This document shows, in pieces, positions 4,362-38,134 of a stretch of 39,906 nucleotides of DNA. Numbering within the stretch: position 1 is the first letter of the stretch; the number at the start of each line of letters is the position of its first letter. A model generated the notes under the pieces. It had not been told where the DNA came from and made no database searches. It saw nothing but the letters and a program-made list of their open reading frames with translations. A program made the position numbers and the translations under genes. This stretch comes from Tepidibacillus decaturensis (GTDB taxonomy: Bacteria > Bacillota > Bacilli > Tepidibacillales > Tepidibacillaceae): the NCBI RefSeq assembly GCF_001561915.1, contig NZ_LSKU01000001.1, positions 772,812 through 812,717 on the forward strand, written 5' to 3'.

Positions 4362-4772
4362 ATGGTAAAACCAAGTGTGATCATTGTTAGGGAGCAGGAC
4401 GAACTTGTTGCCGCATGTTGTGTGCCGTTTGATGGAGAGTTTCTTCAACAGATAGGTAAGATGGATCTTTATCTTAAGGAAAGAGCCGTTATACACAATA
4501 CTGGAGAATTGTATCAGCAATTAAGTAAAGAATTTGGGGAAAATCTATCCTTAGATATAGTTGATCCGAGAAATAAAGGATATCTTTTTCCTCGCATCAT
4601 CAAAGATGTTGTTAGATATAAACTTTCTCTCTGGCAAGCGATCAAAACAATTTTTACACTTAGGGTGCCAGCCGTGATCTTAAATGGTCAATTGCTTGCT
4701 TCCGGGAAAGGGAAGATTTCTACTGAGACATTTGAGCTGATAAAAAGATCGATAAATCGTACGAACATCTAA
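4362..4772 (+). CDS. Small vicinal-cysteine protein, thioredoxin-fold-like, downstream of cstA
   Basis: A 136-residue cytoplasmic protein, not assigned to a family. It has an adjacent pair C19-C20 after a short beta strand (VIIV), an alpha/beta pattern, and near the C-terminus RVPAVILNGQLLASGKG. That last stretch has the look of a thioredoxin-fold cis-proline loop (P103) with its beta hairpin, as in ArsD or glutaredoxin-like proteins, which suggests a metalloid- or thiol-handling role. The start is secure: AGGAGGG lies 4 bases before ATG. Its last residues (INRTNI) are read from DNA whose other strand still encodes the end of a selA relic, so the present C-terminus may have been created by that junction. 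Confidence 0.6.
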   Translation: MVKPSVIIVREQDELVAACCVPFDGEFLQQIGKMDLYLKERAVIHNTGELYQQLSKEFGENLSLDIVDPRNKGYLFPRIIKDVVRYKLSLWQAIKTIFTLRVPAVILNGQLLASGKGKISTETFELIKRSINRTNI

Positions 4773-4883
4773 AACAAATTGATCATCAAATACCCTGCCA
4801 ATAATACGTGGAGAGGTTAGTCTTATTGCCTTTTCAAACTTATGAATGGGAAGGGCAAATGGCTGAATAGCAATAATTTCGTT
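4755..4883 (-). pseudogene. Relic of a second selA (C-terminal fragment)
   Basis: The minus strand encodes 42 residues, EIIAIQPFALPIHKFEKAIR then LTSPRIIGRVFDDQFVLDVR and TI. These align without gaps to the C-terminal region of the intact SelA at 8027-9430 (KLISIKPKHIPVHRFEEALR, ITSPHIIGRISDEQFFLDVR, TI), with 25 of 42 identical. An in-frame TAG lies just upstream and the rest of the gene is missing, so this is a remnant of a diverged paralogue rather than a recent duplicate. The relic overlaps antisense to the 3' end of the cysteine-pair gene. SelA makes selenocysteyl-tRNA, so an older selenium locus once stood here. Confidence 0.85.
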
Positions 4884-8003: not shown

Positions 8004-8036
8004 AGAGAGGCGAAACAGGCGCCTCTCTAGTTTTTT
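8004..8036 (+). terminator. Terminator of the pab operon
   Basis: AGAGAGGCG-aaacagg-CGCCTCTCT followed by AGTTTTTT. The stem overlaps the stop codon of the convergent selA, so both genes end in this hairpin. Confidence 0.9.
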
Positions 8037-9430
8037 GCAATCCATTGTATTTTTTCTACAATTAAATCAAATTCCTTTGGTTCAATGGTTCTCACATCTA
8101 AGAAAAATTGTTCATCTGAGATTCTGCCAATGATGTGTGGGGATGTGATTCGTAAAGCCTCTTCGAATCTATGAACGGGAATATGCTTTGGTTTGATACT
8201 AATCAATTTGGTTAGTAGCTGAACATCAGGCATTGATCCTCCACCGATTTCAGAAAATCCATCGATGATCTTCATTTCAAATTGCTCAGCTATCACTGGT
8301 TTTAACATACTATAGAGTTTTTCACTTTTTTCTTCAATTATCTTCTCCTTCATGAGAATCATTTTTAGAGTAGGTATCTTATCTTGAGCTTCTTCAAGCA
8401 AATAGTGTCTTAAGGTTGCTTCCAAAGCAGCTAACGTCATTTTATCGACTCGAAGAGAACGGGTAAGTTGATTTTTCTTTAAACGATCAATCCACTTTTT
8501 CTTACCGACGATGATACCGGCTTGAGGGCCTCCAAGTAATTTATCGCCACTAAAAGAAACAAGATCAGCTCCTGCTTTAACAGTCTCTTGTACCGTTGGC
8601 TCATTGCCAATCCCATGTTTTTTGAAATCATAGAGAACTCCGCTACCTAAATCTTCATACACAGGGATCTGATGTTCTTTGCCAATTTCAACAAGTGTCT
8701 TCAAGCAGACTTCTTTGGTAAATCCAATAATTTTAAAGTTACTCGTATGTACTTTCATTAATAAACCGGTTTGATCGGTAATCGCTCGCTCATAGTCATA
8801 CCGATGGGTTTTGTTTGTTGTTCCCACTTCCATTAGATGGGCACCACTTTGAGCCATGATTTCAGATACGCGAAAAGAACCGCCTATCTCAACAAGTTGT
8901 CCTCTGGATACAATGACTTCTTTTCCTTGTGCCATCTCTTTTAAGATTAAAATCACAGCAGAAGCATTATTGTTCACCACGAGTGCGGCCTCAGCACCTG
9001 TAAGTTGAACCAGTAAATCTTCCACATGATCGTAACGAGAACCCCGTTTTCCAGTTGATAGGGTATATTCTAAATTGGTGTAATCTGTAGCTGCTAGTTG
9101 TGCAGCTAAAATTGACTCATTGGATAATTTTGCTCGTCCTAAATTGGTATGTAAGATTACTCCTGTACCATTTACGACAGATCTTAAATGGGGAGTCGTT
9201 AACCGTTTATATTGATGGCTTATTTTTTCTAAAATAGTAGATAGCGAAAGCACAGTAGGAGTATCCGATTGTAAGATCTTTTCTCTTTCAATTTCAATCG
9301 TTTTTGAAATAATATCCGAGACCAAATTTAACGGAGAACTTTCTATCAGCTTCTTCACTTCTGGAAGTTGAAGGATTGTTGAAACGGCGGGTAATGCTCT
9401 TAAAGCTTCTTTTTGTTTTTCGGTTAACAT
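8027..9430 (-). CDS. selA: L-seryl-tRNA(Sec) selenium transferase
   Basis: A 467-residue PLP enzyme that converts seryl-tRNA(Sec) to selenocysteyl-tRNA(Sec) using selenophosphate from SelD; bacterial SelA forms a decamer. The family core is seen as VVNGTGVILHTNLGRA, NLEYTLSTGKRGSR, EDLGSGVLYDF and the PLP-binding FSGDKLLGGPQAG (Lys near 295). The C-terminus TSPHIIGRISDEQFFLDVRT is typical. Start is ATG with AGGAG ten bases upstream. It is on the same strand as selD, about 10.6 kb downstream, with an IS-rich island between them; no selB or tRNA-Sec gene is visible in the window. Full length and intact. Confidence 0.95.
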   Translation of the reverse strand: MLTEKQKEALRALPAVSTILQLPEVKKLIESSPLNLVSDIISKTIEIEREKILQSDTPTVLSLSTILEKISHQYKRLTTPHLRSVVNGTGVILHTNLGRAKLSNESILAAQLAATDYTNLEYTLSTGKRGSRYDHVEDLLVQLTGAEAALVVNNNASAVILILKEMAQGKEVIVSRGQLVEIGGSFRVSEIMAQSGAHLMEVGTTNKTHRYDYERAITDQTGLLMKVHTSNFKIIGFTKEVCLKTLVEIGKEHQIPVYEDLGSGVLYDFKKHGIGNEPTVQETVKAGADLVSFSGDKLLGGPQAGIIVGKKKWIDRLKKNQLTRSLRVDKMTLAALEATLRHYLLEEAQDKIPTLKMILMKEKIIEEKSEKLYSMLKPVIAEQFEMKIIDGFSEIGGGSMPDVQLLTKLISIKPKHIPVHRFEEALRITSPHIIGRISDEQFFLDVRTIEPKEFDLIVEKIQWIAKN

Positions 9431-14293: not shown

Positions 14294-16671
14294 TCAATCC
14301 CTTTCAACCTTTCTTATTATGTCTGATAAAAATAAAATCATTTCGTTACCTATCTCTTTATAAAATTCTTTATTTACTTCAATTTGAAAAACTGATTTCA
14401 AAATATTTTCAATTGTTATTTGACTTGGATCATTTTGCTTCAAATAATTAGTTAGATTTAATTCAAATGCAGGAGCTTTATATAATAATTTTGCAAACTT
14501 AAAACCTATAAGTTTTGCATGTGGATATAAATAAATGTCGCGTTTTCCAAATAAAACATCTTTACTCAGTGTGATATTTAGTTGGCTATATTCATCATTT
14601 TTAACTACTCTTTCACCAAAAAGTTCTTTAATTAAATTATTTCGTACTTCTAATACATTCTCAATATTAATATCTTCCAATTTCAAAATTTCTTCTTCAT
14701 AAAGATCTAAAGAAAAAACACCGACCATTGTACCTTGAAGATTATAAATCATCATATTCAAAAACGATTTATTTAAATTAGATTGTTCCATCAAAATAAA
14801 CATAAGTTTAAATTCAGTAAGTATTGCTAATGATTCAGATACTATAGAATTTATATACTTTGCATTATTACCTCTATTTAAAAAAGAATTATAATATGCA
14901 TGCCCAATTTCATGAGTTAGATCCATTATATCCTTACCACTTCCTTCGTATGTTACAATTATTTCAGATAATCCATACCTCGGGTTCCAAATACATAAAG
15001 GATTAACACGATTTTCTGTTATAGTAATCATATTGTGAGTAGTTACATAATTAATAAACCCTCTAAAATCTGAAATGAAATTAAACCTGTCAATTTCAGA
15101 AATTAGCATTAAAGCTTCATTAACATCTAAAAATTTATCTGAATAAGGTTTATATTTTTCATAATCAACTTCATTATCATCTTTATAAAGTAAATTGTTC
15201 ATTTCTTGAGCTATACCAGTTAATACTATTTTAATGTCTCTTTTTTCATCCCATTCTTTGATTAATTCATCAAAATACATTTCTTTTTTCTTTTTCAAAG
15301 CGTTTATTGATAAATCAATTAATTCTGACTGATTTTCTTGATATTTTTTGATGCAATCATTATCAATATCTTTTGCTTCTAACATTTTTATGGAAAATTC
15401 ATTCATGGAATACCTAGTATCCTTACAATCTATGTATTTCTCAGACAATATTTTCTCATACTCATTAAGATCTTTATCCTCTTCGTCAATTAAATCTAAT
15501 TCGAATTTAGTATTTAGCCGTATAATTTCATCATATATATTAGAATCACTATTAATATAGAACTTTTTGTACAATAGAAGTGCATTAGAAAAAAGTATTT
15601 GATTATAAAAATAATTTCTTTCATCATCATTTTTTAGCATGTTCAAAGTCTTTTCAGACTCATCAAAATCAGTTTGAAGTTCTTTAATTTTAAACGAATT
15701 ATCATTTTCCATTGAAGGAGTTAAATAGTTATAACTTAACTCTTTCAAATCAAAATCTAATAATGAAAATAGCTTTTGTAACCACAATCTAGAAAGTAAT
15801 ATTGCAGATAAATCACCAAGCAATCCTAGTCCTGAATTTTCATTAATCCATTTGTGGATATTATTTTCAGCTTCACGGTTTTCATCTAAAAAATCTTGAT
15901 TCACTTCAAGAGCTCTTACCATACCAAATATATAACCTGAAATAAAAACAGGAATTTTTCTTCTGTTAAAATAATCAAAAATAGTTTGTAAAACACTCGT
16001 ATCATGACTATCAAAACATATAAAAACAGCATCAATAGAATTTACATCATCAATATTATCAAACTGTTTTTCACTTTCAAAATATTCATTGTATAAATTT
16101 AATTTTATATTTTTCTTTACCTCATTAATCTTTCTTTCTATAACGTTTATTTTACTTTTACCTATATCTTCAACAGTGTAAAAATGTTGATGTACTATAT
16201 TTTTCTCTTCAACAATGTCGCCTTCAATCAAATCAAATTTTACTATTCCTAATTGTAACAATACCCTTACTAAGGAGGTTCCAACAGTACCTAGACCAAT
16301 AATTAAAACTCTCTTACTAGACATTTCTTGGATAATTTCATCTTTATCACTATTATTTAGAAAATTATTTAGAAAATTTGCAGTTCTCAAATTTGAAAAA
16401 TCTTCTAATTTGTCATCTATATATACCAATCCGTTATCTAATAAAAATTTATTTGTCTCTTCTAATTCAAAATTATTAACATGATATTTATTTATCCAAG
16501 TCTTAACATCCTCTTCATAATATTGTTTACTAATCAACTCTAAATATTCCCACCATTTATCAAAGTCATCTACTTCAATAATCATATCCTTATTTAAGCT
16601 ACCATACATATGAAAAGTAATCTCGTTATTTTTTTATTTCCTCTAAAATTAAGATGGTTTTTTAAGCGCAT
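14294..16671 (-). CDS. ThiF/MccB-like E1 domain fused to M3-type metallopeptidase
   Basis: A large two-domain protein. Counting from the in-frame ATG at 16609 (771 residues), the E1 domain has a nucleotide loop VLIIGLGTVG at 101-110, EGDIVEEKNIVHQHF, EDIGKSK and the acidic VFICFDSHD; no CxxC zinc pairs are seen. The C-terminal half is a thermolysin/oligoendopeptidase F-like M3 domain with HEIGH at 566-570, a third-ligand helix SIVSESLAILTEF and the substrate-side YLYPHAKLIGF. The ATG at 16609 has no ribosome binding site. The ATG at 16671 does (AGGAGTG), and with one extra base in the A7 run (plus-strand T at 16629-16635) it adds MRLKNHLNFRGNKKNNEITF plus H, a typical start of RiPP E1 proteins (the peptide-clamp/RRE region). 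Likely role: adenylate and process the encoded peptide. Very AT-rich, suggesting horizontal origin. Confidence 0.8.
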
Positions 16672-18511: not shown

Positions 18512-19797
18512 GGGGGTGTCGCAAAACTACCTTAGGTAGTTAGCGGCGCTCTCTTTTTATGTTGAAAATAAAAAATCAGCCCATCTTTGGAGAAACTCCC
18601 TCCGTGGCATGGCTGATTTTAGACATGGATAAATAAGCCTTCAACTCAAGGCTTTTTTCGATAATATATTATGCTATTTTTAGATCATGAAGCGACTTTC
18701 CAACACGGTCTTTCTGAATTTTTGCATGAAGTTTATTCACGTTATAACCAAAGCATAAGAGAATAAACTCATTTTTGACGCTGTTTTTGCCACGTGTTAA
18801 GAATCGATTAAAATCGTAGTCGTTTTTTAGGACGCCGAAAGCTCCTTCTACCTGAATGGAACGATTGACTCTTAACAACGTCCCTTCCTCGGATGTAATA
18901 TTCTCATATAATACCTGACGTTTTTCAATAAACGTTTTAGATACTTGCATCTTTCTGTTCCCTTTTGCCTTTGTACATTTTGTACATTTCGTTTTGAATT
19001 GGCATCCACTACAATCTTCGCATTCATAAACGGTTAATTCGGATCGGTAACCTGTTGCTGATGTTCTATGGGTGATTCCAATGGGCTTAAGCTGTTTTCT
19101 ATTGTGACATGTATATTCATCTGTCTGTTCATTGTAAAACATATTTTCTCGTTTACTAATGTTATTTTTAAAACTTTTCTTTTTCCATTGTTCATAGGTT
19201 TGAGGCTTTATTTAATAAGTCTGCTCTTTTCCTTCCAGATAAAGATAATTTTCTTCGCTTTTATATCCAGAGTCTGCAATGATGTTCTGATACCACATTT
19301 TTAGATGGGATTCCATTTCGTCTAAAAAAGGAATAAGGGTTGTGGTATCATTTCGATCTTGAAATATCCCAACTCCTGTTACATACTCACTCTCTACCCA
19401 ATCTGAACGTTGTAAGCAGGTTTTAATTGAGCATTGCGCATATGGTCGTCTTTCATATGCATGAATGTCGCATCTGTATCTGTCTTGAAGTAGCTGTTTC
19501 TTCCTTCAAATAATTGGTTGTGGGTATTGTATCTCTCCTGACGTTCATAGTAAGTCTGCAATTCTTCTGTCAACTTCTGCAGTTTGGTCTTCCGTTTTCC
19601 AATTCCATGAACGAACTCGATTTGTTCTTGCTTTCGTTTTTCTTCTAAGTGGGTAAGTATGACTCTTAGATCATCTAATAAGGTTTCCTTGGTTACTTTA
19701 AAGTTGGTCTCATAGGCCAGATTCATTTCCTCGATAAAGGATTGAATATTCACATACATCTTGGCTTCATTTAAATAAAGAAACCATAGAATTTCTC
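18512..19797 (-). mobile_element. Degenerate IS1182-like insertion sequence
   Basis: The 3' end begins with GGGGGTGTCGCAAAAC, typical of IS1182/IS5-group termini, 14 bases after the signalling peptide gene. The minus-strand transposase reads from [16 protein letters not shown] through [20 protein letters not shown] and [11 protein letters not shown], then shifts one frame to [20 protein letters not shown] and ADSGYKSEENYLYLEGKEQT. A TAA stop interrupts, and it resumes at MFYNEQTDEYTCHNRKQLKP to the zinc-ribbon-like CEDCSGCQFKTKCTKC and RSIQVEGAFGVLKNDYDFNR. One frameshift, one nonsense codon and loss of the N-terminal part and the other end make it inactive. Confidence 0.85.
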
Positions 19798-20016: not shown

Positions 20017-21078
20017 TTATACCACATGAATTTTTCCAGGGTGTTTATCCGTAACTTCTCCGATTATCTGTGCATCTTTCACACCAAGGCCGTGCATTTT
20101 TTGAAGCAAGTCTTCTGCAGCCTTTCCTTCTAAAGCAACAAGTAATCCGCCAGAAGTAACGGCATCGGCAAGTAAGAGTTGATCATATTGGTCTATGTGA
20201 TCCTCAAATATAACATGTTGGGAAACCCATTTCAGGTTATCCCTGCTACCTGCTGGAACGTGTTTATTGATTGCCAGCTCTTTGGTACCATCAAGAATTT
20301 CAACTTTTGCTGAATCGATCACAAGCCCCACGTTTGTGTTCTGTACCATTTCAAGAGAATGACCTAATAATCCAAATCCTGTCACATCTGTTACAGCAGA
20401 AACAGGATAGCCTTTCATTGCTTCAGCAGCATATTTGTTTAAAAAGGCCATCACTTCAGTCACTCGCTCGATCCGTTTTTGATCAAGGACGCCATCTTTT
20501 ATTGCCTTTGTTTGGATACCAACACCAATTGGTTTGGTTAGGATTAATTTGTCCCCAGGTTTTGCTTCATGATTTGTCCATATCTCATTTGGGTGAGCTG
20601 TACCTGTTACCGATAAACCAATGAGCGGTTCAACATTATCTGTAGAATGGCCGCCGATTAAAATAGCACCAGCTTCTTTAATCTTATCTGCACTTCCTTT
20701 AAGAATTTCTGCTAACATTTCAGGTCCTAGCTTGTGAATAGGATAACCAACAATGTTCATTACTGTCAATGGTATCCCACCCATTGCATAGACATCACTT
20801 AATGCGTTGGCAGCGGCAATTTGCCCGTACATATATGGATCATCAACAATCGGTGTGAAAAAATCCACCGTTTGGATTAAAGCTAAATCATCGGAAAGTT
20901 TGTAAACACCAGCATCATCAGGGGTTTCTAAGCCAATTAATACATTTTCATTAAATTCTTGCTTTGGTAAATAACGCAAAACTTGCGCTAGGTCCTCAGG
21001 ACCAATTTTGCAACCTCATCCAGATTTATTAGTGGTTTGTGTTAAACGAATTTTTTCGTTCATATTCAGCAAATCCAT
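20017..21078 (-). CDS. selD: Selenide, water dikinase; itself a selenoprotein (UGA at codon 21)
   Basis: SelD makes selenophosphate from selenide and ATP, the selenium donor for SelA. The standard ORF would start only at MRYLPKQEF, but the same frame continues upstream through one TGA (21018-21016) to ATG at 21078, which has a perfect site (AAAGGAGGGG). The readthrough product begins MDLLNMNEKIRLTQTTNKSG, then Sec, then GCKIGPEDLAQVLRYLPKQ. The Sec falls where E. coli SelD has the catalytic Cys17 in GAGCGCK. Downstream are the usual DDAGVYKL, TVDFFTPIVDDPY, ALSDVYAMGG, VGGH-like ILIGGHS and TDVTGFGLLGH motifs. Full length 353 residues. It is divergent from thiI. Confidence 0.95.
20976..21018 (-). 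promoter_or_regulatory. Candidate bacterial SECIS element in selD
   Basis: Directly after the UGA the transcript can fold: an outer stem GCAAAA/TTTTGC and an apical hairpin GGTCC-TGA-GGACC whose tip lies about 20 bases from the UGA, the distance expected for SelB-dependent recoding. Pairing is read by eye; the exact loop nucleotides differ from the E. coli fdhF model. Confidence 0.6.
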
Positions 21079-21245
21079 TATTGAAACCCCTCCTTTTGCA
21101 AAAACTATATATTATTATAATAAATTTTTGGAAGAAAATCCTGTTTTATTTGAAAATAAGTTTTCTTTTGGAGTTTTATCTACTACTAATCTTTGGTATA
21201 TTTTAATAGGCAACAACATTAGTATGGAAAAGAAGGGTGTTTTCA

Positions 21246-36759: not shown

Positions 36760-36794
36760 ATTTCTAAGATTAAAATGAAATATGGGCGAATGAA

Positions 36795-36957
36795 GATAGA
36801 AGGAGAGACTACGAAATGTAGCGCCGAAGGAGCAAGCCAAAGAGGTGAATCTCTCAGGCAAAAGTACTTCTATTGGACGCATCTCTGGAGAGTGCTCTAT
36901 GAGCCGCCAAAGGAGCAACTTTTTTTAGGTAACTCTCAGGCACAAAGGACAGAGTAG
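36795..36957 (+). promoter_or_regulatory. Tandem glycine riboswitch
   Basis: Two consecutive glycine aptamers. The first contains GGAGAGACT...GCGCCGAAGGAGCAAG then CTCTCAGGCAAAAG; the second contains TCTCTGGAGAG...GCCGCCAAAGGAGCAA then CTCTCAGGCACAAAGGAC. These are the conserved cores of the gcvT element. Located 77 bases upstream of gcvT with a terminator between, it should switch the operon on when glycine is in excess. Confidence 0.96.
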
Positions 36958-36988
36958 ATTGAACTATCTATCGCTCTGTCTTTTTTTT
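36948..36988 (+). terminator. Riboswitch expression-platform terminator
   Basis: GACAGAG-TAGAT pairs with ATCTA-tcg-CTCTGTC followed by eight T. The 5' arm overlaps the end of the second aptamer (AAAGGACAGAG), so glycine binding and terminator formation are mutually exclusive. Confidence 0.9.
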
Positions 36989-37033
36989 ATGGAAAGGAAA
37001 AATTTTGTTATAATCCATTTAGGAGGTGATGTT

Positions 37034-38134
37034 ATGGTAGAGGGTTTAAAAAGAACACCGCTCTATCCACTATACGAAAAATATGGTGCTAAATTAGTTG
37101 ATTTTGGAGGATGGGAACTACCTGTCCAATTCTCTAGGATTAGTGATGAACATCAGGCAGTAAGAGAAAGAGCAGGATTATTTGATGTATCCCATATGGG
37201 TGAAGTTGAAGTTAAGGGGAAAGATGCACTAAATTATATCCAAAAAATAATTACAAATGATGCGTCAAAATTAGTAGATGGTAAGGCTTTATATAGTCCG
37301 ATGTGTTATCCAGATGGTGGAACGGTTGATGATCTATTAGTATACAGATATGTTGAAGATCATTATCTAATTGTTATCAATGCTGCTAACATCGAGAAAG
37401 ATTTCGAATGGTTTCAATCCCATTTAGAGGGAGATGTACATATTAAAAATATTTCCGATCAAGTATCTCAATTAGCCCTTCAAGGACCATTGGCCGAGAA
37501 AGTCTTACAGAAAATGGCGGATACTGATTTATCTTCGATTGAACCTTTCTATTTCGTTCCCGAGGCTAATATTGAGGGGATCAGAGCCATGGTTTCCCGA
37601 ACAGGATATACAGGTGAAGATGGTTTTGAAATCTATTTATCCAATGCAGATGCCCCCAAATTATGGGAGAAAATATTAGAAGTCGGTAAAGATGAGGGAG
37701 TATTACCTTGTGGGTTAGGTGCTAGAGATACGCTGCGTTTTGAAGCAAAGCTACCTCTCTATGGGCAAGAACTTTCAAAAGACATATCTCCTATTGAAGC
37801 AGGGTTAGGTTTTTTTGTAAAATTGGATAAGGGTGACTTTATTGGAAAAGCTATCTTAGCAGAACAGAAAGAGCATGGGGCACAAAGAAAATTAGTCGGA
37901 ATCGAAATGATCGACCGTGGAATTCCCCGTTCTCACTACTTAGTTTATGTTGGCGATGAAGTGATCGGTGAAGTCACGACCGGAACTCAATCTCCTACCT
38001 TACAAAAAAATATCGGACTTGCTTTGATTAAGAAAGAGCATGCAGATATTGGTAATGAGGTATTTGTGGAGATTAGAAACAAAAAGTTAAAGGCTAAAAT
38101 TGTTAAAACTCCTTTTTATAAAAGGAGCAAGTAA
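37034..38134 (+). CDS. gcvT: Glycine cleavage T protein (aminomethyltransferase)
   Basis: A 366-residue folate-dependent enzyme that releases ammonia from the aminomethyl-lipoyl H protein and forms methylene-tetrahydrofolate. Motifs: [69 protein letters not shown] and [12 protein letters not shown]. The start is ATG at 37034 behind AGGAGGTGA; an earlier in-frame ATG falls inside the riboswitch terminator and is not used. First gene of the gcv operon. Confidence 0.97.

Follow-up and report, generated by a model that had tools for sequence, protein, structure and literature searches.

SelD has been described as "often a selenoprotein itself" (PMC4561486), and no bacterial selenoproteins are more widespread than SelD and FdhA (PMC1794560). 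Autoregulation of SelD synthesis is an idea already published, the title of an older paper carrying the words "...autoregulatory mechanism in selenocysteine...". In the current bSECIS model, the hairpin that recodes UGA has a loop of 3-9 nt with a G in the first two loop positions, mostly of the pattern N1-G[G/U]N-N2, and lies 16-37 nt from the UGA (PMC13188914). The SECIS elements of some bacterial selenoprotein genes misfit this single stem-loop model, according to the same review (PMC13188914), and an existing prediction tool overlooks some known selenoproteins (PMC12013277). In eukaryotes, stem-loops termed SRE and HRE adjoin the UGA of SPS genes, and their descent from the bSECIS has been proposed (PMC4561486).

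The selD gene and the selenocysteine machinery

The window analysed here is a 39,906-nucleotide stretch of a Tepidibacillus decaturensis contig. The selD gene, the elements at its 5' end and the selA gene of the same window are as follows.

20017..21078, minus strand: selD, selenide,water dikinase, 353 aa with Sec at residue 21 (translation with the TGA read through; TIGR00476)
21016..21018, minus strand: in-frame UGA, the Sec codon at the catalytic Cys position, where Cys-SelD has TGC or TGT
21089..21093, minus strand: ribosome-binding site GGAGG, read from the sequence, about 10 nt before the ATG at 21078
8027..9430, minus strand: selA, Sec synthase, about 11 kb from selD (TIGR00474, 611.8 bits; PF03841, 6.8e-157)

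The selD reading frame runs from the ATG at 21078 to the stop at 20017 and contains a single in-frame UGA in the context KSG-U-GCKIGPED. A preliminary description of this DNA had proposed such a frame, passing through one TGA to a well-placed ATG, and had assigned the UGA to the catalytic Cys of a Sec-containing SelD. Each of these points is borne out. Read through, the product scores 393.7 bits on TIGR00476 (cut-off 125), profile positions 1-310 corresponding to SelD residues 11-320, and the stretches before and after the UGA are therefore parts of a single protein. The G-C/U-G-C-K motif, which holds the catalytic Cys or Sec and a nearby Lys, is present as SG-U-GCK, and relatives with a Cys-SelD have TGC or TGT at the same codon. 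The longest open reading frame in selD under table 11 spans 20017-20979, starts from a TTG at residue 34 and encodes 320 aa, as had been foreseen for naive gene calling. The SelD protein itself is an ordinary family member, and Sec-containing SelD is already well known in bacteria. By family membership, its predicted activity is the synthesis of selenophosphate from selenide and ATP.

The genome (2.96 Mb, 99% complete) contains selA, selB, tRNA-Sec and one selD, and no second selD has been found in it. The selB gene is located on the contig about 5 kb before the first base of the window, with the tRNA-Sec (67.8 bits against a gathering score of 47) beside it. The Sec-decoding trait, selA, selB, selC and selD in one genome, is thus present, and the absence of selB and selC that had been named as an argument against the Sec reading is not what the genome holds. 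Two fdhA genes of the genome also have an in-frame UGA and are further selenoprotein candidates. UGA-SelD has been found in all four of the other same-family genomes searched; the named close relatives are Vulcanibacillus modesticaldus and Bacillales UBA6259.

Some additional loci have been observed. A second, weak similarity to the C-terminal part of SelA (window 4749-4877, minus strand, E 1e-3) is perhaps a remnant copy near selA, and two IS1182-family transposase fragments (18669-19142 and 19394-19759, minus strand) adjoin selD. A formate dehydrogenase alpha paralogue, L197 (G000:C1:1424862-1426871, minus strand), carries Cys at the Sec site and, elsewhere, a single in-frame TAG, at codon 110 of the match; this gene could be broken. 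Elsewhere in the window, an ordinary tandem glycine riboswitch (36790-36954, plus strand, 73.4 and 43.3 bits) directly precedes gcvT (36959-38134). The 771-aa protein encoded at 14294-16609 (minus strand) has an N-terminal ThiF/E1 domain only, next to an 87-aa open reading frame and a transporter, and this locus is possibly a peptide-modification cluster.

Two hairpins downstream of the UGA

The minimum-energy fold of the RNA after the UGA consists of exactly two adjacent hairpins, for which we will use the terms H1 and H2.

20991..21003, minus strand: hairpin H1, GGUCC-UGA-GGACC, 13 nt, likely a spacer or compacting helix (fold; stem kept in relatives, loop not)
20972..20990, minus strand: hairpin H2, UAGCGCAA-GUU-UUGCGUUA, 8 bp, putative and likely SelB-binding apical hairpin (fold; RNAalifold; covariation)
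20980..20982, minus strand: H2 loop GUU, 33 nt from the UGA, fitting the bSECIS pattern N1-G[G/U]N-N2 (loop pattern; A-GUU-U also in an fdhA signal)

The tips of H1 and H2 are located ~20 nt and ~35 nt after the UGA. The preliminary description had placed a two-part hairpin here with its tip about 20 nt downstream; the RNA signal and the position of its tip hold for H1, but the two parts are separate hairpins. RNA folding, one of the checks it had recommended, returns H1 and H2, but the folding energy of the single window sequence is not significant (z -1.13). The support for the predicted two-hairpin signal is comparative, not folding energy. The earlier reading is thus partly supported, and H2, by comparison the likely SelB site, was not singled out in it.

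H2 has the distance from the UGA, the small loop and the leading G[G/U] of a bSECIS, and the H1 loop of the window lacks G[G/U]. The signal departs from the single stem-loop of the model in having two tandem hairpins, each with comparative support of its own, and it is therefore filed as a bSECIS variant. No Rfam SECIS covariance model matches positions 20900-21150 up to an E value of 10. When the genome was searched for other tandem signals with model R1, only selD scored strongly and the next matches were at chance level.

For the comparative tests, the bases were numbered with the U of the UGA at position 0, which puts H1 at 15-27, the H2 loop at 36-38, the H2 stem core at 31-35/39-43 and the outer pairs at 30-44, 29-45 and 28-46. 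The bases were read ungapped from the Sec or Cys codon, and no alignment choice enters. The null was obtained by shuffling synonymous codons within each position. In the exploratory set (126 UGA-selD and 39 Cys-selD loci from the class Bacilli and from genome contigs), all five H2 core pairs are found in 62 of 90 distinct Bacilli UGA sequences, against 33.2 +/- 2.6 (maximum 41) in the null, and in 4 of 35 Cys sequences, against 1.8 shuffled. Two predictions were then fixed beforehand for a held-out set of phylum-wide UGA-selD genes, fetched blind to structure by protein similarity only. The full H2 core is present in 47 of the 103 new distinct sequences (null 14.6 +/- 2.6, maximum 23 in 1000 shuffles), and the second prediction, GG in the H1 loop of genes lacking H2, is likewise borne out, with 45/56 sequences without H2 versus 7/47 with H2. 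Across 224 distinct UGA-selD sequences the full core occurs in 118 (null 41.4 +/- 4.1, maximum 54), compared with a near-chance 4 of 39 in Cys-selD (null 1.8, maximum 5), and these shuffle figures, like the Fisher figures below, are inflated by the relatedness of the sequences. Pair 30-44, which was not used in picking, is paired in all 118 H2-bearing sequences (null 89.8, maximum 99).

In addition, 38 sequences with H2, drawn from Bacilli, Clostridia and several further phyla, were aligned. H2 is paired in 98.7% of the cells of this alignment, and the two helices taken together have 32 double-changed cells versus 9.5 shuffled; these sequences were picked for H2, so the unselected codon-shuffle tests weigh more. 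RNAalifold, with no structure supplied, returns the 8-bp H2 as consensus. Pairs 32-42 and 35-39 each change 8 times when followed on the full-length tree, and the independent-pair contrasts favour pairing by 4 to 0, too few for significance by themselves. The tandem model matches 130 of 398 phylum genomes, the weak matches including genes with the recognition loop in H1. As judged from these comparisons, H2 is under RNA-level selection in UGA-selD genes. Some Cys-selD genes, for example L116 and L152, also carry a full H2-like hairpin and are perhaps relics of a recent Sec-to-Cys change.

The pairing is also visible in the codons and residues that form H2. In Bacilli UGA-selD genes with Gln-Val-Leu, the Gln and Leu codons are CAA-TTG in 42 cases, CAG-CTG in 19 and mixed in 1. 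The third base of the Arg CGN codon follows the first base of an earlier codon in 77/77 cases, being T or C after codons starting with G or A (62/62) and A or G after codons starting with T (15/15). The residue after Val-Leu tracks the third base of the preceding Ala, Thr or Ser codon that is paired with it, G going with Arg, A with Cys, T with Ser and C with Gly, with 4 exceptions in 118. Because the residue follows the paired base, H2 pairing appears largely to dictate which of these four amino acids stands at this position. The H2 loop takes its GU from a Val codon (GTN) that is common in Cys-SelD as well, which counts against the tandem-signal reading.

Proximal and tandem signals and the proposed role of each hairpin

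Two arrangements can be distinguished among UGA-selD genes. The proximal type has one hairpin, with a GG loop in H1; the tandem type has the GU loop in H2 and keeps the H1 stem, the H1 loop being free. When H1 is judged by the best H1 hairpin of each sequence, a loop of the G[G/U] type is present in 20 of the 118 sequences that have H2 versus 86 of the 106 that lack it (p 5e-23, a value that kinship makes too small). The ~17% of H2-bearing sequences that retain such a loop count against the tandem-signal reading. An H1 stem of at least 4 bp is found in 96% of H2-bearing relatives versus 72% under synonymous shuffling, in part through a shifted register, as in UCGGC-CCA-GCCGA; the loop is not conserved. 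A fitting bSECIS hairpin is located at the place of H1 or H2 in 118 of the 120 distinct UGA-selD sequences of the first set.

Four genomes (G094 with L151 and L184, G342 with L169 and L183, G378 with L165 and L186, and G253 with L185 and L194) each have one proximal and one tandem UGA-selD and a single SelB. Two SelBs serving the two signal types are ruled out by the one SelB per genome, and that SelB must therefore tolerate both arrangements. In another genome, G004, two UGA-SelD genes (L028 and L030) are both of the tandem type, the second with U-TGK in place of U-GCK.

A role for each hairpin can be proposed from the distances. SelB carrying Sec-tRNA would bind the GU loop of H2, and H1 would act as a compacting spacer whose 13 nt fold out between the UGA and H2. 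In the tandem selD the GU is at positions 36-37, and without the 13 nt of H1 it would be at about 23-24 (36 - 13 = position 23). In the same genome, the UGA signals of fdhA place GU at position 22-23, in the loops A-GUU-U and GGUCU, and it is this agreement that leads to the proposal. SelB reading H2, with H1 as the spacer, is most likely the arrangement in this gene. Elsewhere among the selD lineages, H1 with its GG loop would do this job as the only, proximal hairpin, and a shift of the recognition site between H1 and H2 appears to have taken place. The four genomes with both types and one SelB fit the spacer idea and also imply that SelB tolerates both.

One alternative is an ordinary single bSECIS, the two-part hairpin of the earlier reading, in which SelB binds H1 extended by the lower stem GCAAAA/UUUUGC and H2 is incidental. 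The H1 tip at ~20 nt is at the canonical distance, G is the second base of the UGA loop in the window H1, the lower stem can pair in the window sequence, and selD genes without H2 clearly look H1-using. However, the lower stem was rejected for lack of covariation (2 double-changed cells versus 1.3 shuffled), and it competes with H2, which covaries strongly. The H1 loops of H2-bearing genes, which include UUC, CCA, AAG and AAA without G[G/U], also argue against a single bSECIS, and this explanation is unlikely.

SelB could also bind H1 while H2 assists from downstream, as a roadblock that stalls the ribosome at the UGA or excludes release factor 2. Selection on H2 confined to UGA genes suits any recoding role, that of a helper included, and the eukaryotic SREs are examples of helper stems next to a UGA (PMC4561486). 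On the other hand, a helper leaves unexplained both the loss of G[G/U] from H1 alongside H2 (20/118 vs 86/106) and the A-GUU-U loop shared by H2 and a local fdhA signal, making this a rather improbable account. That the UGA arose by sequencing error or by mutation in a pseudogene, or is simply read through with a different amino acid, is scarcely credible. Nothing specific favours such an account beyond the fact that the window by itself could not rule it out. The same UGA stands in 224 distinct selD sequences from many lineages with Cys codons as the sole alternative seen, the misread TGA that the preliminary description had allowed for is rejected by the TGA kept at this codon in the four other same-family genomes and most relatives, and the UGA is accompanied by the full Sec machinery and by an RNA signal for which selection is seen in UGA genes only.

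Based on these observations, the feature is probably a functional Sec-containing SelD whose UGA is predicted to be recoded by a tandem-hairpin bSECIS. The RNA part appears to be a well-supported new bSECIS variant, and the proposed mechanism is plausible. The broader view, that the bSECIS is modular, with a 13-nt H1 spacer that resets the distance, one SelB reading proximal and tandem signals, a recognition site that has moved and pairing that overrides residue choice, would have an even chance of being right.

Comparison with described selenocysteine systems

No description of a tandem or two-hairpin bacterial SECIS was found in the literature searched, which did not extend to supplementary figures; Supplemental Fig. 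SM6.1 of PMC4561486, in which an RNAz structure of the SelD bSECIS is given, might depict one. The tandem architecture is widespread in one of the two commonest bacterial selenoproteins and lends itself to a covariance model for detection. It also offers a natural test of the reach of SelB from the UGA and a clear case of RNA structure deciding an amino acid in a protein.

The SelD of the window does not differ as a protein from the Sec-containing SelD systems already described (TIGR00476; SPS2-type, PMC4561486, PMC1794560), with which it shares the family, the UGA at the catalytic Cys and the accompanying selA, selB and selC. With the bSECIS model (PMC13188914), H2 shares the loop pattern and the distance of 33 nt, and H1 shares the distance. 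The model has one stem-loop, whereas selD adds a conserved hairpin with an unconserved loop between the UGA and the recognition hairpin. The signals of the two fdhA genes in the same genome share the GU in a small apical loop, which in one of them (A-GUU-U) is the H2 loop, but their GU lies 14 nt closer to the UGA with no intervening hairpin. E. coli fdhF has a single-hairpin SECIS. The eukaryotic SRE and HRE are likewise coding-region RNA structures beside the UGA in the same gene family (PMC4561486); they are helpers to a 3'UTR SECIS, and the likeness to the selD signal drawn here is one of description.
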